Shown here in pieces: positions 54 to 27,197 of a stretch of DNA of 64,000 bases. Position 1 is the stretch's first letter. The number at the start of each line of letters is the position of its first letter. The position numbers and the translations under genes were made by a program. The notes beneath the pieces are model-generated. The model saw only the letters and a program-made list of their open reading frames with translations. It did not search any database and was not told where the DNA came from. The stretch is from Paenibacillus sp. G2S3 (GTDB lineage Bacteria > Bacillota > Bacilli > Paenibacillales > Paenibacillaceae). The stretch covers positions 5,890,001-5,954,000 of the forward strand of contig NZ_CP126095.1 in assembly GCF_030123105.1 (NCBI RefSeq). The letters run 5' to 3'.

Positions 54-536
54 TTAAATGACCATTTTATTGCTGACCCATTCCTCTAAGGCTGCAATCT
101 TATCTTTAAAGCGTTCACCGCGCATTTCCTCCGACAACGAAGCAATCGTCTCCCGCTTTAATACAGCTTTCCAAGAGGATTCAGCTTCTTCCATCAGATT
201 GGTTAACAGGCAGCAGCTATCTTCTTTTTCCAAATCCAACATGTCTACCAGAATACCATTGGATGAATACAGCGACTGCTGGCCTTCCACCGCAAGGTAA
301 ACGTCATATACACGAATATCTTCAGGACTCTTCTTTAATTTAAAGCCACCTTTAATGCCGGGAACAGACGTGATGATGTCTGCGGTTACCAGCTTTCTTA
401 ATAGTTTCTGAAAATAGGTCGCCGATGCTCCGAGCTGCTGGCTAATCGCTTCTCCAGACAGCACCGCCTTGTCCGGCAGCATGTTAAGCAGAACCAGTGC
501 ATACACTGACTGTTCTACCCCTGTTTTCATATGCAT
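54..536 (-). CDS. Rrf2 family transcriptional regulator
   Basis: A 160-residue protein with an N-terminal winged helix (about residues 8-65, including the GIKGGFKL wing) typical of Rrf2 regulators. A CC pair lies in the middle, but the three-cysteine cluster of IscR/NsrR is not clear, so a bound Fe-S cluster cannot be claimed. I chose the ATG at 536 because the GAGGTG ribosome site (548-543) lies 6 nt upstream; a GTG at 545 would sit inside that site. A perfect 12-bp palindrome immediately upstream (550-561) suggests autoregulation. The target genes are unknown. CymR, the cysteine-metabolism regulator, belongs to the same family, but this protein is longer and not an obvious CymR. Confidence 0.85.
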   Translation of the reverse strand: MHMKTGVEQSVYALVLLNMLPDKAVLSGEAISQQLGASATYFQKLLRKLVTADIITSVPGIKGGFKLKKSPEDIRVYDVYLAVEGQQSLYSSNGILVDMLDLEKEDSCCLLTNLMEEAESSWKAVLKRETIASLSEEMRGERFKDKIAALEEWVSNKMVI

Positions 537-549
537 GTACAGCACCTCG

Positions 550-561
550 ATTTACGTAAAT
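550..561. promoter_or_regulatory. Perfect palindrome at the Rrf2 gene start
   Basis: ATTTACGTAAAT is a perfect 12-bp palindrome ending 1 nt before the ribosome binding site of the Rrf2-family gene. Its place in the leader fits an autoregulatory operator. That role is inferred from position and symmetry only. Confidence 0.4.
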
Positions 562-688
562 AGCTTGATTCAAACTGGAGATTACATCATCCACGCATAA
601 AGCGGATAAACAATATCCACTTTATACTTTATATCAGTTTGCACCGAAAGTAAAATCTTGCTCATCTTCTATTGCAGCTAATATCTGC

Positions 689-724
689 AAAAAAAAAGAT
701 CACGCATATAGCGCAATCTTTTTT
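689..724 (-). terminator. Intrinsic terminator of the SulP gene
   Basis: On the minus strand GATTGCGC pairs with GCGTGATC (two G-T wobbles) around a short loop, followed by a run of T residues. It lies about 30 nt past the SulP stop codon. Confidence 0.75.
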
Positions 725-751
725 CAGGTATCCGTTATTTTCTTGTATGTC

Positions 752-2194
752 CTACTGTAATGATAATCCCACCCGCTGAACCAGCTGTGAGCTCTGTTCA
801 TTCAGTCCGGTAATCGTAACTTTTTTACCATGCTCAGCGTATTTGCTCATCGTCTTCGCTATGGCATGAACTGCAGATTGGTCCCACACATGGGAGTGTG
901 AAAAATCGATAATAATATGATCCGGATCGCTATCGTAGGCGAATTCATGAATGAAGTGACTTGTCGTGCCGAAGAACAGCTGGCCGGAAACCGCATATGT
1001 TTTGGAAGAGGCAGCTTCCTGAACTGTTAGGCGGATCGAAGCTATTTTCCAAGCAAACGTTAAAGCACTTAGCAGAACCCCAAACAATACTCCAATAGAA
1101 AGGTTGTCCGTAGCCACCACGGTGACCACCGTCACAATCATAACCAGCGCATCGCTTAGCGGAACACGGGTTAATGTTTTGAGCGAGCCCCATTCAAAGG
1201 TGCTGATACAGACCATTATCATTACGCCGACGAGCGCGCCCATCGGAATCTGCTTCACCACATCACCAAGTACAATAATTAAGAACAATAAAAAAATCCC
1301 TGACACAAAGGTGGACAGACGCGTGCGTCCTCCTGACTTCATGTTAACCATTGACTGGCCAATCATCGCACAGCCTGCCATCCCTCCGAAAAAACCAGTG
1401 ACTACATTCGCCAGCCCCTGTCCCTTCGCCTCTCTGTTCTTATCACTACCTGTGCCTGTAATATCGTCTATTAAGGTGGCTGTCATCAGTGATTCCAATA
1501 ACCCAACTACGGCCAGCGAGAGTGAATATGGCAAAATAATAAGCAGAGTATCCAGCGTGAACGGGATCTGCGGTAAATGGAATAGTGGCAAAGTTGCTGT
1601 AATATTCCCCATATCCCCTACGGTTCTTACGTCCAGATGAAGAGCGATGCTAAGAATAGAAACGATAACAATCCCTACAAGTGCTGAGGGTACGGCTTTG
1701 GTAAACCGAGGAACCGTATAGATAATAAGCAATGTCAGAGCTACCAGTCCATACATCACCCAGCCCTGTCCCTTAAAATGAGTAAGCTGCGCCATGAAAA
1801 TCAGTATCGCCAGCGCGTTGACAAACCCCGTCATGACCGGCTGTGGCAAAAAAGTGATAAATCGGCCCAGCTTTAGCATCCCCATCAATATCTGAAACAC
1901 CCCAGCCAGTACAGTTGCCGCGAACAGATACTCTACTCCATGTTCTAGTACGAGACTTCCGACTAACAGAGCCATAGCCCCTGTAGCCGCCGAAATCATT
2001 CCAGGTCTGCCTCCGGCAAGTGCGGTTACAATCGCAATACAGAAAGAGGCATATAAACCAACCATCGGACTTACTCCCGCCAGGATCGAAAAAGCGATCG
2101 CTTCAGGAATCAGCGCAACGGCTACGGTCATCCCCGATAAAATATCGGTTCGAGTGTTAGAAAACCACCCATTATTTAAGGTAAGCTGCTTCAA
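752..2194 (-). CDS. SulP (SLC26) family anion permease with STAS domain
   Basis: A 480-residue membrane protein of the SulP family, whose members carry sulfate, bicarbonate or other small anions. The N-terminal signature is visible ([20 protein letters not shown], then [20 protein letters not shown]), with about ten hydrophobic spans to residue 385. A cytoplasmic STAS domain (about 390-480, containing [19 protein letters not shown]) follows. The protein resembles the Bacillus subtilis YbaR group. Translation starts at TTG (2194), with AGGAGG 10 nt upstream. It is transcribed alone; a terminator follows the stop and a cre-like sequence lies upstream. The substrate cannot be read from sequence. 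Confidence 0.9.
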
Positions 2195-4865: not shown

Positions 4866-4899
4866 AAGCCGCCCAGACTCCAACTCTGGGCGGCTTTTT
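4866..4899. terminator. Bidirectional terminator between gpx and the flavoprotein locus
   Basis: A 10-bp perfect stem (GCCGCCCAGA / TCTGGGCGGC) with a 7-nt loop is followed by T5 on the plus strand. It lies 175 nt past the peroxidase gene and abuts the stop codon of the convergent ferredoxin gene, so it probably ends both transcripts. Confidence 0.85.
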
Positions 4900-5240
4900 C
4901 ATGTACGGTACTGCTCAGTAAATACTTCAAAATAAGGGGTGGTATCCCTTTCAGCCATTGAGCCATTAGCGCCCGGTCCCCAGCCGATCTCAGCCCGCCA
5001 GCTCCCTAGCAACCCTGTCTGGATTAGCGCCTCCTCATTTACACCGATCAGCTGATCCGCCTGTGGCGCTACATAAAGTGCATCTACAGGGCAATAAGCT
5101 TCACACATAAAACAAGTCTGGCAATCTTCCTGACGCGCAATAACCGGAATCTTCCCCTGCATTTCGAATACGTTTGTCGGACATACTTTCGTGCACAGTT
5201 TACAACCCACGCAGCGTTCAACGCTGATTAGTTCAATCAT
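4899..5240 (-). CDS. AprB-like 2x[4Fe-4S] ferredoxin, copy 1
   Basis: A 113-residue ferredoxin with two complete CxxCxxCxxxCP motifs: Cys10-13-16-20 and Cys40-43-46-50. A tail of about 55 residues follows (LIGVNEEALIQTGLLGSW, then IGWGPG). The two-cluster core plus tail resembles the beta subunit of APS reductase, where the tail wraps around the flavoprotein. The start codon overlaps the stop of the preceding flavoprotein gene (ATGA), so the pair is translationally coupled and likely forms a heterodimer. It is the last gene of the ABC-importer operon. It is paralogous to the ferredoxin at 7994-8326, including the tail. Confidence 0.9.
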   Translation of the reverse strand: MIELISVERCVGCKLCTKVCPTNVFEMQGKIPVIARQEDCQTCFMCEAYCPVDALYVAPQADQLIGVNEEALIQTGLLGSWRAEIGWGPGANGSMAERDTTPYFEVFTEQYRT

Positions 5241-6847
5241 ATCGCCTGCCCCTCCTTTAGTAAATTCAGTTCATGAGCATGGGGCACAGCCTCGGTACCG
5301 ATGCTTATTTGCTCTATACCGGATACAATCAGCCGGTGGGTTTGACGCGGATCAAGCTCCGGATATTCCGCGAGCTTTTGCAGGCCGCGCGTCTCCTTCC
5401 GGGCCAGCGCGGCGGTGTACATCCATCTGCCGACCGCGAGCATAGCCGCGGCTTCGCGTGCTTGCACGATGCCCTGTACGGTGGCGGGAACGCGCCCGTT
5501 CAACAAGGGCATCAAGGCATTCAGCCGCTTCAAGGCTGAAGAAATGCCCGGTTCGCTGCGGAAATAGTTGATCTGCAGCGGCAAGATTTCACGCTGGATC
5601 GCCGCGACTAGCGGCTTCACCTCCAGCGTTTCCGAGGTGTCGGCGCCAGCCGCCAGCCCGTAGCGTCCCGCTGCGGTCAGGTTGCGGCTGTTCGCCTGCC
5701 CTCGGCTGGACCGCGCATGCTGCGCGGCTCCCTGGCCAGCCCAGCTTCCGCTGCACATGGCCCAGGAAGCGTTATAAGCCCCGCCGCCGGAGATGGCGCC
5801 GGTCACTTTCTCGCGAGATGCGGCATCTCCGGCCGCATAGAGTCCGGGCACGGTCGTCCGGCAGTCCGTGCCGCTCAAGCGCAAACCACCCGTGCCGCGC
5901 ATGGTTCCCTCATAGCGCAGGGTGAGCGGGAATTTCTGCTTAAACGCATCAATTCCCGCCCGCTCCAGCGGCATAAAGAAGATCGGATGCGCTTTTCGCA
6001 GAAAATCCTGTTTCTCCGCTGTATCTGCCAGATCGAGCGAAGCATAAACCGGCCCCTTGAGCATCATTTCAGGAATGCTGCCAAAGGTCCGATCCCCTTT
6101 ATGCAGCGGATGACCGTCCGCATCATAAAGCGTGGCCCACGCCAGCATGCGCCCACGTGTTACGGTTCCGTCTGCAAAGCTCGGCGCGTATTGGCGGCTG
6201 AATTCCATGCCCGACAGATCGGCTCCCACCTCGGCAGACATCAACAGCCCTTCACCTGTCAGTACGTTGCAGCCAAGACCTTTGCTGAGAAAAGCACAGC
6301 CTCCGGTTGCCATCACAACAGCATTGGCTTTCACTTCCCAAGACTCCCCTGTAAGGCGGTTGATCCCGCGTGCCCCACCAACCCCATATTCATCATGAAG
6401 AAGCTCTAGCGCTGGCGACTGATCGAGGATCGTGACCCCCGCTTTGCGGACAACTCTTCGCATAATCCGCATGTACTCTGGTCCGTGCAGATGTGTGCGC
6501 AGTGAGTTTCCTGCCTCATCCTTCGGAAAAGGATACCCCCATTGCTCTACTTGGGTCAGGTTCTGCTCTACCTGATCCAGCACACGGTGAATCCAGGCAT
6601 TCTCCGACAAATATCCACCGGATTTCAACCTGGATTGAACCGCCTGCTCTCGCAACTCGGCAATCGGAGGGATAACGAGCAGCGTTGTACCGCCCGGAGC
6701 AGTAGCACCGCTTGTACCCAAGTAGCCCTTATCTGCCAGGACTACCTTTGCACCTTGCGACGCTGCACTCCATGCCGCCCAAGCTCCTGCCGGACCTCCG
6801 CCAAGCACAAGGACATCCACTGTCATTTCCTTCTTAAGCTGCGACAT
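5237..6847 (-). CDS. AprA/fumarate-reductase-like FAD flavoprotein, copy 1
   Basis: A 536-residue flavoprotein of the fumarate reductase/succinate dehydrogenase/APS reductase alpha superfamily. The FAD dinucleotide-binding motif is near the N-terminus (VLVLGGGPAGAWAAW), with TSGATAPGG shortly after. The second FAD motif is TVPGLYAAGDAAS, followed by GGGAYNASWAM. There is no signal peptide, so it is cytoplasmic. The start at 6847 is supported by GGGAGG 7 nt upstream. The 535-residue flavoprotein at 8323-9930 is its paralogue. Its 3' half is much richer in G+C than the paralogue, with 44 of 60 bases G or C at 5701-5760. The substrate is unknown; context suggests an organosulfur compound. Confidence 0.88.
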   Translation of the reverse strand: MSQLKKEMTVDVLVLGGGPAGAWAAWSAASQGAKVVLADKGYLGTSGATAPGGTTLLVIPPIAELREQAVQSRLKSGGYLSENAWIHRVLDQVEQNLTQVEQWGYPFPKDEAGNSLRTHLHGPEYMRIMRRVVRKAGVTILDQSPALELLHDEYGVGGARGINRLTGESWEVKANAVVMATGGCAFLSKGLGCNVLTGEGLLMSAEVGADLSGMEFSRQYAPSFADGTVTRGRMLAWATLYDADGHPLHKGDRTFGSIPEMMLKGPVYASLDLADTAEKQDFLRKAHPIFFMPLERAGIDAFKQKFPLTLRYEGTMRGTGGLRLSGTDCRTTVPGLYAAGDAASREKVTGAISGGGAYNASWAMCSGSWAGQGAAQHARSSRGQANSRNLTAAGRYGLAAGADTSETLEVKPLVAAIQREILPLQINYFRSEPGISSALKRLNALMPLLNGRVPATVQGIVQAREAAAMLAVGRWMYTAALARKETRGLQKLAEYPELDPRQTHRLIVSGIEQISIGTEAVPHAHELNLLKEGQAI

Positions 6848-6886
6848 ATCTTTTCCTCCCAAGCATTTGCGCTTTCCAAGCAATCG

Positions 6887-7945
6887 TTATTTCAGCTGCC
6901 AATCGCTAATATTGAAGTCTTTTTTCGCTAATTTTTCTTCGACAAGGAAGTTCTTGGTCCCCTCAAGTAGCTTGGTTCCTTCGTCTGTGAACGCGGTATC
7001 CTTAATATCGCTGATCGGATTTACTTGTTTGGCCAGCTCTGGTGTCGTATCTCCGATTTCAGCCAAAAATTGATAATATTCATCCTCGTGCTGCTTTAAG
7101 TCTGCCAAGGCTTTCTCACGAGCTTCGTTCCACACCTTCGGAAAGTCAGGGAATTTCGCCAGATAGTCCTCAGACACGACAGTTGCACTAGTGCCAAGCA
7201 AGTTCGGGTGCTTCGAGGCATCGTCTAAATGAATGTAGCCTTGGTCAATTAATTTCAGCGCAGGAACACCCAAGTTAGTCGTAGCATCTACATCTCCACG
7301 AGCCAAGGCTGCGGTAGCATCCGGAATGAGCATATGCACGAGTTTGTAGTCAGTTACACCTTCCTCCTGAAGTAATCCAACCACATAGCGGTGCATGAAG
7401 GAGCCTTTTTGAATGGCTATAGTCTTCCCTTGCAGATCTTTCACCGTCTTTGGTCCATCCTTCTTACCGATTAGATAACCGATAGTGTTGGCTGAGGATT
7501 GTGAAATCAGACGTGTCTTGGCACCAGAGGCATAAGCAATAATAGCAGGTGTATCCCCAAGGCTGCCGATATCCAACCGACCACTAATTAAAGATTCTGT
7601 CTGATCAGGACCGTTTGGAAAGCCCGTAAGCTTCACTTCAGTAATGCCATATTTCTTCAACTCTTCTTGAATGATCCCTTTATAAAAGCCCCAGCCCTCC
7701 GCACCACCTGGCACATTCAACTTATTGGAGCCTATAAAACCAAAGTTCAGTACCGCTGGAACGTTACTTGTGGCTTCGCCTCCAGATTTCTCTGTATTAG
7801 AGCCGCCGGTTGCAGATGCTTCATTGCCCCCAGCGTTATTTCCGCAAGCCTGAAGCACCAACATAATCATCATAATCGTAGAAAAAAGTGCAAATCGAAC
7901 CCTTTTAGATCGTTTCCCTTGAATCTCTCTGTACGCTGGTTTCAT
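6887..7945 (-). CDS. SsuA/NrtA-type substrate-binding lipoprotein
   Basis: A 352-residue periplasmic-binding-type protein of the sulfonate/nitrate/taurine ABC family. A signal peptide ends in the lipobox LQAC, so the protein should be anchored outside the membrane. The mature part has family features: GFIGSNKLNVPGGAEGWGFY near the start, then SGRLDIGSLGDTPAI and TIAIQKGSFMHRYV. It lies between the two flavoprotein-ferredoxin pairs, 48 nt after the second ferredoxin and 39 nt before the first flavoprotein. It should deliver substrate to the two permeases encoded upstream in the operon. The substrate cannot be told from sequence; aliphatic sulfonates are the usual guess. Confidence 0.9.
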   Translation of the reverse strand: MKPAYREIQGKRSKRVRFALFSTIMMIMLVLQACGNNAGGNEASATGGSNTEKSGGEATSNVPAVLNFGFIGSNKLNVPGGAEGWGFYKGIIQEELKKYGITEVKLTGFPNGPDQTESLISGRLDIGSLGDTPAIIAYASGAKTRLISQSSANTIGYLIGKKDGPKTVKDLQGKTIAIQKGSFMHRYVVGLLQEEGVTDYKLVHMLIPDATAALARGDVDATTNLGVPALKLIDQGYIHLDDASKHPNLLGTSATVVSEDYLAKFPDFPKVWNEAREKALADLKQHEDEYYQFLAEIGDTTPELAKQVNPISDIKDTAFTDEGTKLLEGTKNFLVEEKLAKKDFNISDWQLK

Positions 7946-7993
7946 TTCTTTCTCCCCCTAGATTTATGTTATTTATCTAAATCTTAATCAAGG

Positions 7994-8326
7994 TCAGAAC
8001 CCTGCCCTCGACGCCAATTTGTACATAAAGTCATGACTTGCCACCGGCTGTCTACCTTTGCCCCAGCCTACTTTTTCACGATAACCACCAAGTAGTCCCT
8101 GCTCTTGAAGCCCTGCCTCTGTCACCCCAATCACTTTCTCTGAATCTGGCGCAACGTAGAGAGCATCCACAGGACAATACAACTCACACATAAAGCAAGT
8201 CTGGCAATCGCTCTGCCGGGCAATAACAGGAATGCCATCCTCTACCCGTTCGAAGACATTGGTCGGGCAGACCGATACACATTGGTTGCATTCTACACAT
8301 CTGGCAGCGCTGAGCACCTCAATCAT
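7994..8326 (-). CDS. AprB-like 2x[4Fe-4S] ferredoxin, copy 2
   Basis: A 110-residue ferredoxin with two CxxCxxCxxxCP motifs: Cys10-13-16-20 and Cys41-44-47-51. A tail with VIGVTEAGLQEQGLLGGY and GWGKG closely parallels copy 1. I chose the ATG at 8326 because it overlaps the upstream stop codon (ATGA) and has AGGAGGG before it; a longer reading begins inside the flavoprotein gene. It should be the electron-transfer partner of the flavoprotein encoded just upstream. The conserved pairing and identical overlap in both copies show that the two genes duplicated as a unit. Confidence 0.9.
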   Translation of the reverse strand: MIEVLSAARCVECNQCVSVCPTNVFERVEDGIPVIARQSDCQTCFMCELYCPVDALYVAPDSEKVIGVTEAGLQEQGLLGGYREKVGWGKGRQPVASHDFMYKLASRAGF

Positions 8327-9930
8327 GATAGAACACCCTCCTTGGCCACGGCTTCTGTCTTCACCCATACCTGATCCAATCCACCGCTAATCAAGCGATG
8401 ATGCTGATCTTGATCCGTTCCTTTAAAATCCTCACGCTTATGCATGCCCCTCGTCTCCGTACGGGCAAGCGCAGAATTGTACATCCAGCGGGCGGTAGCG
8501 GTCATGGCTTCTGCTTCACGCGCTTTAACCCCTTCAGGGGTAAGCTGAATTTCGCGGCTGCGTTGTTCTTTCCATAGTTCATCCAGACGACCTAATGAAG
8601 AGGTCAGTCCTTTGTTCGTACGAAATAAATTAATGTCATACGGCTTCACCTCAGCCTGCACAGCAGACACAACCTCTGTCGTTTGGGCTGTCACTCCCGG
8701 CTTCACTTCCTGATGTACCAGTGGTGAGGACGATAATCCTACTGGATTACGTTGTGCGACATGCGATCCGAGACTCTGAGCATAAACAGCAGCTCCTTCA
8801 CCAGCAAAAGAGCCGGATGACATGGCCCAAGCCGCATTATGGCTCCCTCCACCAGTAAAGCCTCCGCAAATCAGCTCACGGGTAGCAGCATCTCCTGCTG
8901 CGTATAGACCTGGGACACCTGTACCACAGCTTTCATCCGTGATATGAATACCACCCGTCCCACGAACCGTTCCTTCGAGACGAAGCGTAACCGGAAAAGC
9001 ATCCTTGAATGGATCGATTCCTTGGCGGTCAAATGGTAGGAAAAAGTTCGTTTGTCCTACCCGCAAAAGAGGTCTTAAATCCTCTGGTGCTCCATCCAGC
9101 TTGGCGTACACCTGATTGCCTGCCATCAGATTCCGTGCGATGACTGAACGTCCTTTCTTGGAACCCGCCCCTTCCACAATGCTTCCATCCTCATAATAAA
9201 AGCTGGCATAGTTGTAATACGCAGTCTTGGTCACAGAGGAGAACGTAGGGCAGATAGCATAGGCATTGGAGAATTCCATACCGGACAAGTTCGCCCCAGC
9301 CTCAGCTGCAAATAGATAGCCATCTCCGGTCAACACATTACAACCGAGGGCCTTACTTAAAAAAGCACACCCACCGGTAGCAATGACAACCGCTCCTGCC
9401 TGAACCGTCCAAGTCTCACCACTCTGCGTATGGACTCCAGCCGCTCCAGCTACGCCATGCTCATCCGCAAGGAGCTCCATGGCTGGGCTATGATCTAGAA
9501 TTTTAACGCCTGCCTTTTTCACCAGCTTACGCATTAATTTCATATATTCCGGTCCCTGAAGACTCTTACGATATTGGTTACCCTGCTCATCTACAGGGAA
9601 TGGATATCCTGAAACGCCAAGTTTGTTCATATTGGCATAGGTACGGTCTAGCACTCGGTCCATCCAGCGCGATTCAGCCAACTGACCGCCCAATATATAA
9701 CGACTTGCTTTAGCTTCCTCCCGGAGCTTTTCATCCGGCTTCACATACCAGACCCCAGTTCCCGAGGGTGCCGTTGCACCGCTCGAACCGCAATAGCCTT
9801 TATCTGCGAGGACGACTTTCGCACCCTTCGCTGAGGCCGTAAGGGCTGCCCATGTTCCTGCAGGGCCTCCGCCTATCACGAGTACATCTGTCACCAAATG
9901 TAATGATCCTTTTTGTATCGATCCACTCAT
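8323..9930 (-). CDS. AprA/fumarate-reductase-like FAD flavoprotein, copy 2
   Basis: A 535-residue flavoprotein paralogous to the one at 5237-6847. Visible motifs are VLVIGGGPAGTWAAL (FAD, about residues 16-30), SSGATAPSG, TGGCAFLSKALGCNVLTGDG, RGTGGIHI, and GVPGLYAAGDAATRE followed by GGFTGGGSHNAAWAM. Both copies keep SGMEF and the GGCAFLSK region, so they probably share chemistry. The middle section (about residues 215-260) differs most, which could reflect different substrates. The start at 9930 follows GGAGG. The gene sits 23 nt after the second permease. By family it could be a reductase of an oxidised sulfur or carbon-carbon substrate; the precise reaction is not known. Confidence 0.88.
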   Translation of the reverse strand: MSGSIQKGSLHLVTDVLVIGGGPAGTWAALTASAKGAKVVLADKGYCGSSGATAPSGTGVWYVKPDEKLREEAKASRYILGGQLAESRWMDRVLDRTYANMNKLGVSGYPFPVDEQGNQYRKSLQGPEYMKLMRKLVKKAGVKILDHSPAMELLADEHGVAGAAGVHTQSGETWTVQAGAVVIATGGCAFLSKALGCNVLTGDGYLFAAEAGANLSGMEFSNAYAICPTFSSVTKTAYYNYASFYYEDGSIVEGAGSKKGRSVIARNLMAGNQVYAKLDGAPEDLRPLLRVGQTNFFLPFDRQGIDPFKDAFPVTLRLEGTVRGTGGIHITDESCGTGVPGLYAAGDAATRELICGGFTGGGSHNAAWAMSSGSFAGEGAAVYAQSLGSHVAQRNPVGLSSSPLVHQEVKPGVTAQTTEVVSAVQAEVKPYDINLFRTNKGLTSSLGRLDELWKEQRSREIQLTPEGVKAREAEAMTATARWMYNSALARTETRGMHKREDFKGTDQDQHHRLISGGLDQVWVKTEAVAKEGVLS

Positions 9931-9953
9931 AGCTCAAGACCTCCTCAAATGGT

Positions 9954-10841
9954 TTACCCTTCGTAACTATCGCGCCAGAACAAGAATTTACGTTCAATGA
10001 TTCTGAACAAAGAATCGATTAGCTTGCCGACTATAGCAAAAATAATAATGCCTACAAACACAACCTCTGTATTGGAATTTTGCTTCGCCTCATTGATCAA
10101 GAATCCGATGCCGGACTGTGATCCAATGAGTTCAGCTACAACAAGACCTATCCACGCTACAGCCAATGATAGCCGTAATCCTAACAAAATTCCGGGCAAT
10201 GCTGCCGGTAATATCAGCCTGCGCAGCTTCTGGTACGGGCTAAAGCCTAACACCCGAGATACCTCGAACAGCTTATTGTCCACATTCCGGATGCCCATAA
10301 ATGTATTAATATAGAGCGGAAAGAATGACCCTGTCAGAATGATCACTACTTTGGACATCTCTCCAAAGCCGAACCACAAAATAATAAGTGGTGCTATAGC
10401 TAAATGAGGGACAAGCCGTAGCACCTGTACGCTAGGATCGAGCACATATTCCACACTGCGAAACAAGCCAGTCAGTACTCCGAATAAAAGACCTAGAACC
10501 CCTCCGATAAGAAAACCAATTCCCGCTCTCCCCATACTGACACCTAGGTGATGAGTTAACTCTCCAGTAACCAATAGGTCGGAAAAAGCTTTGGCGATCG
10601 ACAACGGAGTCGGAAGAAACTGTGCGGAGATCAGTCCGGTACTTCCTGCCAGCTGCCAAAGGACGATCGTCACCACCGGAATGATAGCACCGGTTCCCCA
10701 ATCTGACAGTAAAGATTTCCATGCTATAGGTACCACAGATTTCTCCAATTTCTTAGTCGATAAAGGAGTAATATCACTGCTATCCAGCGATTCCCTTGCT
10801 CTTGTAGTGTTTTTTAAAATAGCTTCTACTCCATCGCTCAT
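9954..10841 (-). CDS. ABC transporter permease, SsuC/TauC type (2)
   Basis: A 295-residue inner-membrane permease with about six hydrophobic spans and the EAA-type loop (GIRNVDNKLFEVSRVLGFSP, then LILPAALPGILLGLRLSLA). This signature is typical of sulfonate/nitrate/taurine importers. An N-terminal extension of about 40 residues is polar. It is closely similar to the neighbouring permease at 10878-11681, and the two probably form a heterodimer with the ATPase encoded at 11821-12597. GGGGG precedes the ATG. Confidence 0.92.
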   Translation of the reverse strand: MSDGVEAILKNTTRARESLDSSDITPLSTKKLEKSVVPIAWKSLLSDWGTGAIIPVVTIVLWQLAGSTGLISAQFLPTPLSIAKAFSDLLVTGELTHHLGVSMGRAGIGFLIGGVLGLLFGVLTGLFRSVEYVLDPSVQVLRLVPHLAIAPLIILWFGFGEMSKVVIILTGSFFPLYINTFMGIRNVDNKLFEVSRVLGFSPYQKLRRLILPAALPGILLGLRLSLAVAWIGLVVAELIGSQSGIGFLINEAKQNSNTEVVFVGIIIFAIVGKLIDSLFRIIERKFLFWRDSYEG

Positions 10842-10877
10842 GGTGCATCCCCCTTTCGATTCATGCGCGTTTTCTGT

Positions 10878-11681
10878 TTATCCACGATAGTTGTCCTGCC
10901 ATCTCAGCAGCCGTCGTTCAATGTAGCGAACAATAGAATCACTCACTAGTCCTGCAATGGCAAAAATAATAATTCCCACGAACACCACAGGTGTATCCGC
11001 AAATTGACGCGCGTCCGACATCATATACCCAATGCCCGAAGTGGATGCAATTAGCTCTGCCACTACCAGACCTAGCCAAGACAGCCCTAAGGAAAGGCGC
11101 ACTCCGAGAATAATGTTCGGCAGCGCCGCTGGAAGTACTAGCCTTACAACTTGCTTTATAGGGCTAAATCCAAGCACTCTAGATACTTCGAACAGCTTGT
11201 TATCCACGCCGCGAATGCCCATGAACGTATTAATGTACAGCGGGAAAAATGCTCCTTTAGCAATCAATAGCACCTTGGACTCCTCACCGATCCCGAACCA
11301 TAAGATAAACAGCGGTACTACCGCCAAACTTGGTATCATGCGAATCATTTGCAGGGATGGATCTAGCAATTTCTCTGATCTGCGGAACAGACCTACGAGA
11401 ATGCCTAATAGTAGACCAAGTCCACCACCGAGCAGGAAGCCAGAAAGGGCTCTGACCAAGCTGATCTTAAAGTTCGGCCATAAATCCCCAGAAGCGGCCA
11501 AGGTTACAAAAGATTCAGCAATGGTATACGGTGTCGGGAACAGCATCTCTGAGATCAATCCATTGTGTCCAAGAATCTGCCACAGAATCAGCACAGTGCC
11601 CGGTAGCAGAAGGCCCAGTCCCAATGTGGTTACCTTTCCGGGGCGTCCGGAAGTTCTTACGGCCATAGCCCGATTTGTCAT
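10878..11681 (-). CDS. ABC transporter permease, SsuC/TauC type (1)
   Basis: A 267-residue permease with the same loop as its neighbour (GIRGVDNKLFEVSRVLGFSP, LVLPAALPNIILGVRLSLG) and about six membrane spans. I prefer the ATG at 11681, which has AGGTGG 9 nt upstream; the in-frame GTG at 11690 overlaps that site. The two permeases share the whole loop motif and their C-terminal halves (VVFVGIIIFAIAG), so they arose by duplication. A terminator-like hairpin lies between this gene and the ATPase gene. Confidence 0.92.
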   Translation of the reverse strand: MTNRAMAVRTSGRPGKVTTLGLGLLLPGTVLILWQILGHNGLISEMLFPTPYTIAESFVTLAASGDLWPNFKISLVRALSGFLLGGGLGLLLGILVGLFRRSEKLLDPSLQMIRMIPSLAVVPLFILWFGIGEESKVLLIAKGAFFPLYINTFMGIRGVDNKLFEVSRVLGFSPIKQVVRLVLPAALPNIILGVRLSLGLSWLGLVVAELIASTSGIGYMMSDARQFADTPVVFVGIIIFAIAGLVSDSIVRYIERRLLRWQDNYRG

Positions 11682-11726
11682 GCTCTGCACCCACCTTTTT
11701 TTAGCTTTACAATCTCTTTAAATAAC

Positions 11727-11766
11727 AAAAAGAGACCCTCGAATATTGAACAATTTCGGAGGTCTC
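11727..11766 (-). terminator. Hairpin with T run between ATPase and permease genes
   Basis: On the minus strand GAGACCTCCGAA pairs imperfectly with TTCGAGGGTCTC and is followed by T5. It lies inside the apparent operon, 45 nt upstream of the first permease start. It would reduce expression of the downstream genes relative to the ATPase gene, or act as an attenuator. Confidence 0.6.
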
Positions 11767-11820
11767 CATCGGTATGGTCGACATATTTATTTTCATTTAG
11801 GCTACTTTAATTTGAGAATG

Positions 11821-12597
11821 CTATATTCCTGCCCCGTCAACAAGCTCAAGCTCATCTACTTTTTCAAAATAATTCAGTACCTTCAGGCGTAGCTCTTGAA
11901 AGGAAGACGTTGTTTTTTTACGCGGATATGGCAAATCAACCGGCACAATCTTACGTATTTTCCCTGGGCGCGGTTCTAGAATGACTACCCGATTGCCTAG
12001 GAATACAGCCTCATCAATATCATGCGTTACAAAAATCATGGTCGTTTTGTTGGCCCGCCAAATGTCCAGTAACACCGTCTGCATATGCGCTCTAGTGAAC
12101 GCATCCAGTGCACCAAACGGTTCATCCAGGAGCAGAATTTTGGGATTTCGCAGGAGCGCACGGGCTATCGCCACCCGCTGGGCCATCCCTCCCGATAGTT
12201 CCCGGGGATAGGATTTCTCAAAACCATTTAGCTTCACCAGATCGATCAACTCATCGACCTTCCGCCTAACCTCCTTATTCCCTAGCGGCAAATCGGAAGC
12301 AATATTCTTCTCTACAGTGAGCCAAGGAAAGAGACGATGCTCTTGAAAAATAAATCCCTTATCAATTCCGGGACCTCCAATCTCCGTCCCTTCTAAGGTA
12401 ACACTCCCCGTATATCCACTGTCCAAACCGGCCACGATGCGCAGCAGCGTGCTTTTGCCACAGCCACTGGGACCGATCACTGTAATGAATTCCCCTTCCT
12501 GCACATGGAGATCAACATTATACAGTGCCTGAACATGCCCTCCACTAGACTCAAAACGTTTATTTAGATTTGAAATCGACAGCAACGCTTCTCCCAT
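11821..12597 (-). CDS. ABC transporter ATPase, SsuB/TauB type
   Basis: A 258-residue nucleotide-binding subunit that powers the sulfonate/nitrate/taurine-type importer. Walker A is [11 protein letters not shown] (about residues 43-53), the Q loop is [11 protein letters not shown], the signature is [15 protein letters not shown], and Walker B is [15 protein letters not shown] with a following switch histidine (FVTHDIDEA). It is the first gene of the operon. A -35/-10 pair and a leader hairpin lie upstream, and GGAGGGG precedes the ATG. Confidence 0.95.
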
Positions 12598-12624
12598 CGT
12601 GACCCCTCCTTCAATTCTGTATAC

Positions 12625-12669
12625 AAAAAAAACAGAGGTATTGCGCTTTTACATTCGCAATACCTCTGT
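12625..12669 (-). terminator. Leader terminator / attenuator before the ABC-flavoprotein operon
   Basis: A perfect 14-bp stem (ACAGAGGTATTGCG / CGCAATACCTCTGT) with a 10-nt loop is followed by T8 on the minus strand. It ends about 28 nt before the ATPase start codon. It lies downstream of the promoter at 12723-12751, so it can attenuate this operon. It could also serve as the terminator of the ion transporter gene that stops at 12780. Confidence 0.85.
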
Positions 12670-12722
12670 AGGAACAGTCGGTAATTATTATTCAAAGTAA
12701 ATCAATTGGAATTATAATATTT

Positions 12723-12751
12723 AAAATATCATCCATTTGAAAAGCTGTCAA
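12723..12751 (-). promoter_or_regulatory. Promoter of the ABC-flavoprotein operon
   Basis: TTGACA (12751-12746) and TATTTT (12728-12723) are 17 nt apart on the minus strand. Transcription would start near 12716, giving a leader of about 119 nt that contains the terminator hairpin. The AT-rich stretch just downstream (about 12685-12712) holds TTCAAAGTAAATCAATTGGAA, an imperfect dyad that could be an operator. Confidence 0.65.
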
Positions 12752-15781: not shown

Positions 15782-15845
15782 AATCACATTCTTCCATAAA
15801 CGAACATGCTTTATCAAATATATAAATAACAAGGGGTTTGTGATC

Positions 15846-16931
15846 ATGAGTAACGAGGTAACCACAGCACCAGCATCCGACTTTGAATTCGGGATCTACA
15901 CCTTAGGAGACATTGTAGCTGATTGTCATACCGGTAATAAGATCAGCCCGAAACAACGACTCGACGAAGTTATAGCTGCGGCCAAGCTGGCGGATGAAGC
16001 AGGGCTTGATGTATTTGGTGTAGGTGAGCATCACCGACTTGATTTCGCGATTTCTTCGGTTCCAGTCGTTCTGGCAGCCATCTCCCAGGTTACTCACAGA
16101 ATCAAGCTGACGAGTGCCACTACTGTATTAAGCACGATTGATCCCGTGCGCGTGTTCGAGGATTTCGCCACACTTGATTTACTGTCGAATGGCCGTGCAG
16201 AAATTATTGCTGGACGTGGTGCTTTTGTGGAATCTTTTCCGCTCTTTGGGTACGAACTTGAAGACTATCATCGACTATTCGCCGAGAATATTAATCTGCT
16301 TCTCGAGCTTAATAAGCATGAAATTATGAACTGGGAGGGTTCCTTCCGCTCATCCTTGAAGGATTCTGAGATTGCACCACGCCCTCTTCAGCAAAGCCTT
16401 CCTGTATGGATAGGTGTAGGTGGTTCTCCTGAAAGCGCGGAGAAAGCTGGCGTACTCGGAACTGGAATGGCTATCGCCATTCTTAGCGGTAGTCCAGAGC
16501 CTTTCCAAGAGCTTGCTGCAACTTATCGACGCGCTGGAATTCAGGCGGGCCATGCACCTGAGGCTTTAAAGATTGCGATTACCAGCCACGGCTACATTGC
16601 CGAAACCTCACAGCAGGCGCTGGATGAATATTACCCGTATTACTATAGTTATCGTAATTCCATCAGCCCAAAACCTGGTCAAGAATACAGCGTTTCTCGT
16701 GACGACTTTGGGCAATATGTATCTGCTGATAACACGATGGCTGTAGGTAGCCCGCAGCAAATTATCGAAAAAATTCTTTATCAGCATGAGCTGTTCGGCC
16801 ATAGCCGCTTTATGACTCAGCTCGACATCGGCGGCCTTCCTTACGCCAAGGTAGCCAAGGCTATTGAACTATTGGCAACAGAGGTTGCCCCTGTCGTACG
16901 ACGCGAGATTGCCAAGAAGAATAGCCGATAG
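15846..16931 (+). CDS. Luciferase-like (LLM class) flavin-dependent monooxygenase
   Basis: A 361-residue flavoenzyme of the bacterial luciferase superfamily, which uses reduced FMN and oxygen. Visible features are FGVGEHHRLDFAISSVPVVL, LTSATTVLSTIDPVRVFEDF, and GRAEIIAGRGAFVESFPLFG. The start at ATG 15846 is preferred because AAGGGG lies 9 nt upstream; a GTG at 15840 would be too close. The palindrome over its promoter points to an inducible gene. SsuD-type sulfonate monooxygenases belong to the same superfamily, and a sulfonate-type importer is 3 kb away. This protein belongs to a different subgroup, however, and the link is tentative. Confidence 0.88.
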   Translation: MSNEVTTAPASDFEFGIYTLGDIVADCHTGNKISPKQRLDEVIAAAKLADEAGLDVFGVGEHHRLDFAISSVPVVLAAISQVTHRIKLTSATTVLSTIDPVRVFEDFATLDLLSNGRAEIIAGRGAFVESFPLFGYELEDYHRLFAENINLLLELNKHEIMNWEGSFRSSLKDSEIAPRPLQQSLPVWIGVGGSPESAEKAGVLGTGMAIAILSGSPEPFQELAATYRRAGIQAGHAPEALKIAITSHGYIAETSQQALDEYYPYYYSYRNSISPKPGQEYSVSRDDFGQYVSADNTMAVGSPQQIIEKILYQHELFGHSRFMTQLDIGGLPYAKVAKAIELLATEVAPVVRREIAKKNSR

Positions 16932-25114: not shown

Positions 25115-26794
25115 TTACGAATTCTTTTTCCATGTATCCTTCAGCGGTACAATTCGGTTCAATACCAGCTTATCTGCTGTCGCATACTTTTTATCCACAC
25201 AGAAGAATCCATGCCTGATGAATTGAAATTTATCCTCTGGAAGTGCACTTTCCATAGAAGGCTCCAGGTAACACTCCTTCAGAATCGTTAAGGAATCTGG
25301 ATTAAGATACGCGTCCCAGCGCTCATCATCTTCTTTAGGACCGTCGTTATCTTTTAGCAACCGCTCATAAAGATGAACTTCCGCCTTGATCGCGTGCTCT
25401 GCCGACACCCAGTGGATGGTCGCTCTGACCTTACGTTCATTAAATCCACTTCCACTCTTCGTTCTCGGATCATAGGTGCAGTGAAGCGCTAGAACTTCTC
25501 CGGTTGCTTCGTCCTTGATCACCTCGTTGCACTTAATGAAATAGGCGCCCTTTAACCTTACCTCATTGCCTATAGTGAGCCTGTGATAACCTTTGGGTGG
25601 CTCCTCCATGAAATCCTCTTGTTCAATATAAAGCGTCCGTGAAAAAGGAACCTCTCTATCTCCAAGCGTCTTATCTTCACTGTTGTTCTCAATCGTCAGC
25701 CATTCACTATGATCTTCGGGATAGTTAGTAATAACCACCTTTAAAGGCTTTAGAACAGCCATCACGCTAGGTGCCTTCGCCTTTAAATCTTGTCTAAGCG
25801 AATGCTCCAACATGGCAATATCTACAATGGTGCTATTCCTAACAAATCCAATTTCCTTCACAAAATTCCGAATACTCTCCGGCGTAAAACCTCTTCTCCG
25901 CAGTCCGCGAAGTGTTGGAAGTCTCGGGTCATCCCAGCCATCCACATAATGTCCCGCAACCAATTGTCTAATATACCGTTTGCTTGTGACGACACCAGTG
26001 ATATTTACGCGTCCGAACTCCCTTTGCTTTGGAGCTTCAGGGGTATCCAGCTCATTCAGCACCCACTCGTACAGGGGTCGATGATCCTTAAACTCAATGG
26101 AGCATAAGGAATGCGTAATCCCTTCGATTGCATCTTGGATCGGATGGGCAAAATCATACATTGGATAGATGCACCAATCGTTGCCTGTTCTATAATGCTC
26201 CGCATGAATGATTCTGTAAATCACCGGATCACGCAAGTTGATATTAGGTGAGCTCATATCTATCTTTGCCCGTAATACTCTGGCTCCCGTCGGATAGGCT
26301 CCATCCCTCATCTCAGCGAACAACTTCAAATTCTCTTCCACAGAACGCTCCCGATAAGGGCTGTTTTTTCCTGGCTCCGTAAGCGTCCCTCTATAAGCTG
26401 TCACCTCTTCAGGTGATAAATCGCAGACATAAGCTTTTCCTTTTCGGATTAACGTGACTGCGCTATTGTATATTTTTTCCGAATAGTCTGATCCGTAGAA
26501 CGTATGGTCCGGTGAGTAGCCCATCCATTCCATATCTTCGATGATGGCATTTACATACTCCAGATCCTCTTTTAAAGGATTCGTATCATCGAACCGCAAA
26601 TGGAACTCTCCGCCATACTTCTTCGCAGTTGTATAATTCGTGTGAATGGCATACGCACTGCCAATATGCAGATATCCGTTAGGTTCCGGTGGAAATCTGG
26701 TACAAATGTCTCTACTATAAGCTCCCGCCTCAAGTTCTTCTTGAATAAATTTGTCGATGTAACTCTCTGCTATTACTTCTGGTTCCTTGTTCAT
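25115..26794 (-). CDS. glnS: Glutaminyl-tRNA synthetase
   Basis: A 559-residue class I synthetase that charges tRNA-Gln directly. The HIGH motif is in PPEPNGYLHIGSAYA (about residues 35-49), the KMSKS-like motif is VVTSKRY, and the C-terminal anticodon-binding beta barrels are present (about 340-550). The motifs and length fit GlnRS rather than a non-discriminating GluRS. B. subtilis lacks this enzyme and makes Gln-tRNA by GatCAB transamidation, so a GlnRS gene is notable in this group and may have been acquired. It is controlled by a T-box whose specifier reads a Gln codon. AGGAGG precedes the ATG. Confidence 0.95.
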   Translation of the reverse strand: MNKEPEVIAESYIDKFIQEELEAGAYSRDICTRFPPEPNGYLHIGSAYAIHTNYTTAKKYGGEFHLRFDDTNPLKEDLEYVNAIIEDMEWMGYSPDHTFYGSDYSEKIYNSAVTLIRKGKAYVCDLSPEEVTAYRGTLTEPGKNSPYRERSVEENLKLFAEMRDGAYPTGARVLRAKIDMSSPNINLRDPVIYRIIHAEHYRTGNDWCIYPMYDFAHPIQDAIEGITHSLCSIEFKDHRPLYEWVLNELDTPEAPKQREFGRVNITGVVTSKRYIRQLVAGHYVDGWDDPRLPTLRGLRRRGFTPESIRNFVKEIGFVRNSTIVDIAMLEHSLRQDLKAKAPSVMAVLKPLKVVITNYPEDHSEWLTIENNSEDKTLGDREVPFSRTLYIEQEDFMEEPPKGYHRLTIGNEVRLKGAYFIKCNEVIKDEATGEVLALHCTYDPRTKSGSGFNERKVRATIHWVSAEHAIKAEVHLYERLLKDNDGPKEDDERWDAYLNPDSLTILKECYLEPSMESALPEDKFQFIRHGFFCVDKKYATADKLVLNRIVPLKDTWKKNS

Positions 26795-26834: not shown

Positions 26835-27117
26835 AAATAAAAAGAACCTCACCTCCAAGACTTATGGTCTTGGGGACGAAATTCTCGCGGTACCACCCCA
26901 GGTTCATTAATATGTCGCCATATCAATCTCATCAAGTACGGCAATGCAGCTTACGCAGCGCTTATACTCTAGCTCTATAACAGGAGCTCCCGTCATACCA
27001 TCCCCGCCGATCGGTTCCGATATGCCGCTCAGAGGCTTGTTTCGATAAAATCTCCCTTACCCTGTTCTCATCATTCAGGGCTCTCTGTGAAGGAATGATT
27101 TTATGTACTCTTCTCGT
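26835..27117 (-). ncRNA. T-box leader of glnS with CAA specifier
   Basis: The T-box core GGGTGGTACCGCG is at 26898-26886. A terminator stem built around CCAAGAC/GTCTTGG and a T run follows to about 26839. Stem I begins near 27117 (GACGAGAAGAGTA). On its 3' side GAA-A-CAA-G places the specifier CAA at 27039-27037, a glutamine codon that matches the downstream synthetase. Uncharged tRNA-Gln should therefore stabilise the antiterminator. Confidence 0.93.
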
Positions 27118-27197
27118 CATCGCGTTTAATTATTTTGTATAGGATACCAAATAGATGGTCCTGTGTAAATGGCGCTGTACTTCTGTCTTCTTACGAT

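Follow-up and report, generated by a model that had tools for sequence, protein, structure and literature searches.

A sulfonate-type importer joined to two asfAB flavoprotein-ferredoxin pairs in Paenibacillus: a probable sulfur-starvation operon with a candidate attenuator leader

The window considered here is a 64,000-nucleotide stretch of the Paenibacillus sp. G2S3 genome (NCBI RefSeq assembly GCF_030123105.1, contig NZ_CP126095.1, positions 5,890,001 to 5,954,000; G000:C1:5890001-5954000, where G000 is the window's own genome, a single contig of 6.70 Mb). At positions 4866..12751 it holds an operon of eight open reading frames (ORFs), all on the minus strand, encoding in order the ATPase and two permeases of an ATP-binding cassette (ABC) importer, a flavoprotein, a ferredoxin, a binding lipoprotein, and a second flavoprotein and ferredoxin. 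Judged by their sequences, the two flavoprotein-ferredoxin pairs belong to the known asfAB kind. The gene order and single direction, as given in a first-pass annotation of the stretch, are borne out by the ORF list and family assignments, and so is the ATGA overlap between each flavoprotein gene and its ferredoxin gene (exact at 8326-8323 and 5240-5237); ATGA is found in 74 of 140 such junctions counted, GTGA and TTGA being common among the remainder. The limits of the operon coincide with a promoter at one end and a terminator-like hairpin at the other, and its features are as follows.

12723..12751, minus strand: sigma-70-type promoter, TTGACA-17-TATTTT (consensus scan, with a total at chance level)
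12690..12716, minus strand: AT-rich box TATAATTCCAATTGATTTACTTTGAAT immediately after the -10 element, conserved in close relatives
12625..12690, minus strand: leader RNA element 1, before the ATPase gene (59.0 bits with model R1, in which this element is included)
11821..12597, minus strand: ABC ATPase of the nitrate/sulfonate/taurine type, SsuB-like (ORF and profile matches)
11727..11790, minus strand: leader RNA element 2, of the same family, between the ATPase and permease 1 (56.9 bits, also in the model)
10878..11690, minus strand: permease 1, SsuC-like, GTG start (ORF and profile matches)
9954..10841, minus strand: permease 2, SsuC-like (ORF and profile matches)
8323..9930, minus strand: AsfA1, flavin adenine dinucleotide (FAD) flavoprotein of the AsfA family, 535 residues (CH34 identity, tree, alignments)
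7994..8326, minus strand: AsfB1, two-[4Fe-4S] ferredoxin with a conserved tail, ATGA overlap with asfA1 (profiles, alignments)
6887..7945, minus strand: SsuA/NMT1-type binding lipoprotein (ORF and profile matches)
5237..6847, minus strand: AsfA2, Paenibacillaceae paralogue of AsfA, 536 residues, 49% identical to AsfA1 (tree, alignments)
4899..5240, minus strand: AsfB2, two-[4Fe-4S] ferredoxin, its gene overlapping asfA2 by ATGA (profiles, alignments)
4866..4896, minus strand: terminator-like hairpin that follows asfB2 and can be read on either strand (consensus scan only, with a total at chance level)

The promoter is accepted because the same promoter recurs in several related upstream regions. 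The AT-rich box may resemble a CymR-type repressor site; look-ups in the literature and databases yielded no CymR consensus against which the box could be scored.

The assignment to asfAB draws on the chromid of Cupriavidus metallidurans CH34, one of 97 plasmid or chromid records matched by AsfA1, in which a single place shows 61.7% identity over 98% of the query and is followed directly by a ferredoxin 50% identical to AsfB1. Passages of the genome paper name the asfAB pair of CH34 as Rmet_4334/5, and the place fits this numbering because a by-eye candidate for Rmet_4310, the FAD-dependent oxidoreductase of that paper, lies 24 kb and 20 ORFs away. The CH34 record being unannotated, the equation rests on uniqueness and gene numbering with no locus tag, and two points count against it: the order 4334/4335 for A and B would suggest the opposite strand, and no LysR gene adjoining the CH34 pair was recognised by eye. 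Membership of the AsfA/AsfB kind is nonetheless indicated by high identity to the AsfA of a strain whose asfAB is named, as far as that equation holds, and by the two-[4Fe-4S] ferredoxin that directly follows the flavoprotein in both pairs; the LysR regulator AsfR of asfRABC is absent among the operon's ORFs. The binding lipoprotein presumably occupies the place of asfC in the order asfRABC. Among 80 stretches, the best of the 566 that were confirmed, the closest named matches of AsfA1 are from Paenibacillus (96% and 93%), and AsfA as a protein name is used by no source among the matches listed (120 of 5039 homologues). According to passages of a review, asfA transposon mutants of Pseudomonas putida S-313 lose the use of aromatic but retain that of aliphatic sulfonates, P. 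putida asf complements ssu, and AsfAB is assigned to electron transfer for an oxygenase. The first-pass annotation knew of no described function for the arrangement, which is not borne out in view of the CH34 match, the review and the genome paper. Searches of an open-licence library showed no paper on asf in Paenibacillus among the entries listed.

The survey of gene neighbourhoods proposed in that annotation was carried out with AsfA1 on the same best 80 of 566 stretches, the counts of which favour close relatives. A long AsfA1 row is present in 79 of these 80 named loci and a long AsfA2 row also in 31; the core of six genes, ATPase-permease-permease-AsfA1-AsfB1-binding protein, occurs in 29, the exact eight-gene order in nine, and the same order with one extra ORF, standing before the second flavoprotein, in five more. 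An annotated plasmid of P. cellulositrophicus carries the identical eight-gene order. The eight-gene arrangement is more than chance. A nitroreductase-like gene recurs in 17 of the 86 loci compared (by eye, one homologue being confirmed by Pfam) and an alpha/beta hydrolase-like gene in 12 (by eye). Besides CH34 and P. cellulositrophicus, five of the 97 matching plasmid records were opened, namely annotated records of Shinella, Azospirillum, Pseudonocardia, Nostoc and Rhizobium, all from other phyla, and in these asfAB lies near organosulfur genes, its neighbours being importers, luciferase-like monooxygenases (LLM), or genes of the SfnB type, TauD type or transsulfuration.

AsfA-type genes are present in 22 of 60 genomes of relatives, the source genome included, with a fragment in G012 and type 2 only in G008, G048 and G056; the last three carry AsfA2-AsfB2 without a whole AsfA1, and one pair can therefore stand alone. 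A sample of 398 genomes across the phylum contained asf in four, all of the window's class. The carriers of asfA named in the reviewed passages are Proteobacteria and Actinobacteria, a range extended here to Paenibacillaceae, Bacillaceae and cyanobacteria. Decay of asf was observed in three places: a short AsfA1 remnant (G008:C7:10191-10295), a leader with an ATPase fragment that continues into the final third of AsfA1 while ferredoxin and binding protein remain (G012:C1:1118103-1119123, L024), and an asf-like leader ahead of a transposase-like gene (G034:C1:1032636-1032698). Repeated AsfA copies within a locus also occur outside the type-2 lineage (L128, L130 of Nostoc, L101 of P. psychroresistens).

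The leader element consists of CGA, a 4-bp hairpin with a four-base loop, AG, and then an intrinsic terminator; its part from CGA to AG overlaps the 5' arm of the terminator, the stem of which can absorb part of the 3' arm of the small hairpin. Element 1 folds with -22.8 kcal/mol (z -5.9), and element 2 has a z of -2.2. A structure model was built because a fixed-sequence motif, with one exact match and three matches with two mismatches in the source genome, did no better than its backward control (seven matches). Matches to the model at E<=0.01 occur in 45 of the 60 relatives. At E<=1e-6 there are 46 genome matches, of which 20 precede asf genes or an asf-type ATPase (several of them trained the model) and 13 stand before or clustered with SsuD/NtaA-type, TauD, SsuE, SsuB or sulfatase genes, 12 of these 13 lying outside the 33 sequences of the model. 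In the Bacillales loci L183-L202 the leader precedes genes for sulfatase, TauD, SsuD/NtaA-type proteins, SsuE and a Cys/Met pyridoxal-phosphate enzyme. Two points weigh against reading these matches as a sulfur regulon: the remaining 13 of the 46 are other or unexamined, including GntR, X-Pro peptidase-like, nitroreductase and transposase-like genes, and although 89.3% of pair cells in the 33-row alignment are standard, against 70.3% in shuffles, the rows were preselected by a pattern that already demanded the small hairpin and the terminator's first six pairs, and the pair counts are therefore no independent test. Rfam 15 gave no family for the leader at threshold and just weak, unrelated matches below it. 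Termination control of the B. subtilis ssu genes was reportedly described by van der Ploeg in 2001. A common premature-terminator element ahead of a sulfonate transporter operon in bacilli is described by Naville and Gautheret (2010); the principle of the leader is already known, and the regulon reading extends it. The leader and its genes are a candidate sulfur attenuator regulon of Bacillales, and the sharing of the leader provides an entry point to the way these bacteria control sulfur. Two weaker matches in the source genome lie at C1:6356347-6356419 (34.2 bits) and C1:1640360-1640427 (27.5 bits), the former preceding a 301-residue protein to which Pfam assigned no family at E<=1e-5, a similar protein with the leader being present in G001.

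Domains, homology and alignment uphold the first-pass placement of the pairs in the superfamily of the adenosine 5'-phosphosulfate (APS) reductase AprBA and fumarate reductase. In a tree of 69 rows a single clade (100/99) holds the 65 AsfA-type proteins, at a great distance from AprA and from the 3'-phosphoadenosine 5'-phosphosulfate (PAPS) reductase of Methanothermococcus, and AsfA2 falls within a 23-row clade (100/100, stem 1.21) of Paenibacillaceae, joined by one or two rows from elsewhere in the Bacillales; the tree program flags long branches, and the sister group of this clade is unsure. On this phylogeny AsfA2-AsfB2 is a paralogous pair of long standing in Paenibacillaceae. AsfA1 and AsfA2 types are separated at 17 alignment positions, as expected for different substrates. 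Likeness to AprBA does not extend to the active site, nor to the tail of the ferredoxin, where it had been suggested. AprA N74, W234, R265 and H398, taken as catalytic residues, are kept in PAPS reductase 8a8o and in 3gyx, whereas AsfA1 and AsfA2 have a gap or V/M in their place; the ferredoxins resemble the beta subunit of PAPS reductase in sequence over the two-cluster part only, the tails of AsfB1 and AsfB2 (about 45-50 residues each) being conserved within their own ferredoxin family. Invariants of AsfA itself include R317, E319, R323, R351, N365 and W368, which are kept in more than 97% of 86 AsfA1-type and 36 AsfA2-type rows and occur in none of the AprA, PAPS-reductase or NadB rows of the alignment. 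The curated models for fumarate reductase/succinate dehydrogenase and L-aspartate oxidase give at best 124.3 bits against a cut-off of 718, and identity as a fumarate reductase is ruled out by residues, the tree and these cut-offs.

From what is read off the sequence, namely gene content, family membership, conservation, and the leader with the genes it precedes, the operon is probably a sulfur-starvation organosulfur module. A sulfonate as substrate, control by starvation, assembly of AsfA with AsfB, their catalytic role, the pocket, the part played by O2 and the split between two substrates are inferred. The ABC system would import an organosulfur compound, most likely a sulfonate, and each AsfA-AsfB pair would form an AprBA-shaped heterodimer in which electrons from a cellular donor pass through the two [4Fe-4S] clusters of AsfB to the FAD of AsfA. 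The reduced flavin would then free the sulfur as sulfite, with O2 probably as co-substrate, in a pocket probably formed by the family-only invariants (R317, R323 and R351 being candidates). AsfA1 and AsfA2 may serve two substrate ranges, and transcription would be limited by the attenuator-like leader held in common with other organosulfur genes. This joint reading, of an asf-type module used under sulfur starvation in which AsfAB itself desulfonates, is put at about an even chance. The wider suggestion, that AsfAB constitutes a new class of flavin/iron-sulfur desulfonases cleaving C-S bonds, which replaces SsuD-type oxygenases in Paenibacillaceae, covers two substrate ranges and possibly works without O2, is somewhat less secure than that.

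The principal competitor to catalysis by AsfAB is the role held in the asf literature, in which AsfAB is merely the electron-transfer module of a desulfonating monooxygenase encoded elsewhere in the genome, a distinct possibility although the less favoured one. No oxygenase is present among the ORFs and Pfam matches of the operon. A search of the 60 genomes for SsuD, TauD and ring-hydroxylating oxygenase found SsuD over the cut-off in eight (three of the 22 asf-bearing genomes, seven of which have SsuD matches of at least 300 bits), TauD in 11 (three of 22) and ring-hydroxylating oxygenase in two (none of 22). In the source genome SsuD matches stay below the cut-off (best 48.9 bits), and TauD and ring-hydroxylating oxygenase are both absent; this genome is among 15 of the 22 asf-bearing genomes without SsuD at 300 bits or above, TauD or ring-hydroxylating oxygenase (18 of 22 when SsuD is counted at its cut-off alone); G012, whose AsfA1 is a fragment, G018 and G035 have no SsuD-model match whatsoever. 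As obligatory partners these three oxygenases are rejected, not being common to the asf-bearing genomes among the relatives. SsuE-family proteins over the cut-off occur in 39 of the 60 genomes, 20 of the 22 with asf and 19 of the 38 others, a count that is uninformative because the family is nearly universal in the genus. AsfA has the Pfam domains FAD_binding_2 and Succ_DH_flav_C, those of a substrate-handling flavoprotein superfamily, and no ferredoxin-NADP reductase-type domain. Since the known oxygenase kinds are lacking in 15 of the 22 genomes and AsfA has these domains, AsfAB is rated above a mere carrier and inferred to be a desulfonating enzyme.

Several observations weigh in the other direction. 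Passages of the review and the genome paper have AsfAB supply electrons to an oxygenase, and four of the five other-phylum records opened show asfAB near LLM-type flavin monooxygenases. The source genome itself holds possible partners: three weak NtaA-like LLM matches, an SsuE-family flavin reductase, and an LLM gene of another group within the window (15840-16931, plus strand; Atu2307/SP_0267 group closest, 406.7 bits, cut-off 462.25), relatives of which are near 14 of the 86 loci compared. One of the three NtaA-like genes, reading as NtaA/DmoA-like, adjoins a second sulfonate-type importer and a LysR-like gene (G000:C1:4781000-4787000, L141; by eye). A partial Pyr_redox_2 match over the FAD Rossmann part of AsfA also leaves a role for NAD(P)H formally possible. 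The choice bears on how asfA is used, as the literature, in the passages available, uses it to mark soil bacteria that mobilise sulfonates and credits it with electron transfer only; self-contained operons of importer plus AsfAB, in genomes where none of the three oxygenases is clearly present, would provide a clean genetic system for deciding on C-S cleavage by AsfAB.

That AsfAB carries out reductive desulfonation independently of O2, as the first-pass annotation proposed, is improbable, even though the operon lacks an oxygenase, its genome lacks the three known kinds, and the subunit plan is AprBA-like. The named asf carriers that were recognised are presumably of aerobic or facultative genera, which together with the occurrence of asf in four of 398 phylum genomes, all in the window's class, mildly but not decisively favours use of O2. 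Work with 18O2 on strain S-313 reportedly also speaks against a reductive route. Desulfonation by P. putida is, moreover, described as an oxygenation in the passages available, and oxygen-independence is thus mildly disfavoured.

Still less probable is an importer that takes up a compound free of sulfur, such as a thiamine precursor, on which the flavoenzymes act. The binding lipoprotein matches the Pfam NMT1/THI5 family, falling below the cut-off of the SsuA subfamily model (131.2 bits, cut-off 163.5), and some NMT1-type binding proteins carry thiamine precursors. The permeases likewise score 248.9 and 235.8 bits with the SsuC model (cut-off 347); by these profiles the importer is related to SsuABC/TauABC and, the curated equivalog and subfamily cut-offs not being reached, is hence not called SsuABC. 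The leader RNA common to organosulfur genes and the sulfur-gene neighbours in other phyla argue against a non-sulfur compound and support the imported organosulfur substrate that had been suggested. Identity of the pairs as assimilatory APS or PAPS reductases, suggested by the common superfamily and by passages on an AprBA-like PAPS reductase in Methanothermococcus, can practically be discarded, being ruled out by the lost AprA residues that PAPS reductase keeps, the separate clade with its very long branch, and scores of 39.4 and 28.3 bits with the curated aprA model (cut-off 641.75).

Elsewhere in the window, a gene for an Rrf2-type regulator and one for a SulP-type transporter lie beyond the operon's end (54-2194, minus strand), and a T-box leader (26869-27129, minus strand) precedes a glutaminyl-tRNA synthetase-like gene (25115-26794, named by eye).

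Among known systems, dissimilatory APS reductase AprBA and the Methanothermococcus PAPS reductase (8a8o) combine, like AsfAB, a flavoprotein of the same superfamily with a two-cluster ferredoxin, whereas AsfAB lacks their catalytic residues and has its own invariant set (R317, E319, R323, R351, N365, W368). The element of Naville and Gautheret (2010), as described, is likewise a premature terminator before sulfonate transport genes and may be akin to the leader found here. In asfRABC of P. putida S-313 and asfAB of CH34, an AsfA-type flavoprotein is followed by a two-cluster ferredoxin as in the window, and a binding protein and ABC importer are present according to the passages available; the window operon differs from asfRABC in having no LysR gene, a second, diverged asfAB pair and leader attenuator elements, and its genome has no SsuD over the cut-off, where P. 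putida asf is said, in the reviewed passages, to complement ssu. The modules of SsuABC/TauABC with SsuD/TauD share the type of importer and, where they occur in other Bacillales, the leader RNA as well; unlike them, the window operon has neither SsuD nor TauD, and the flavoprotein-ferredoxin pairs stand in that place.

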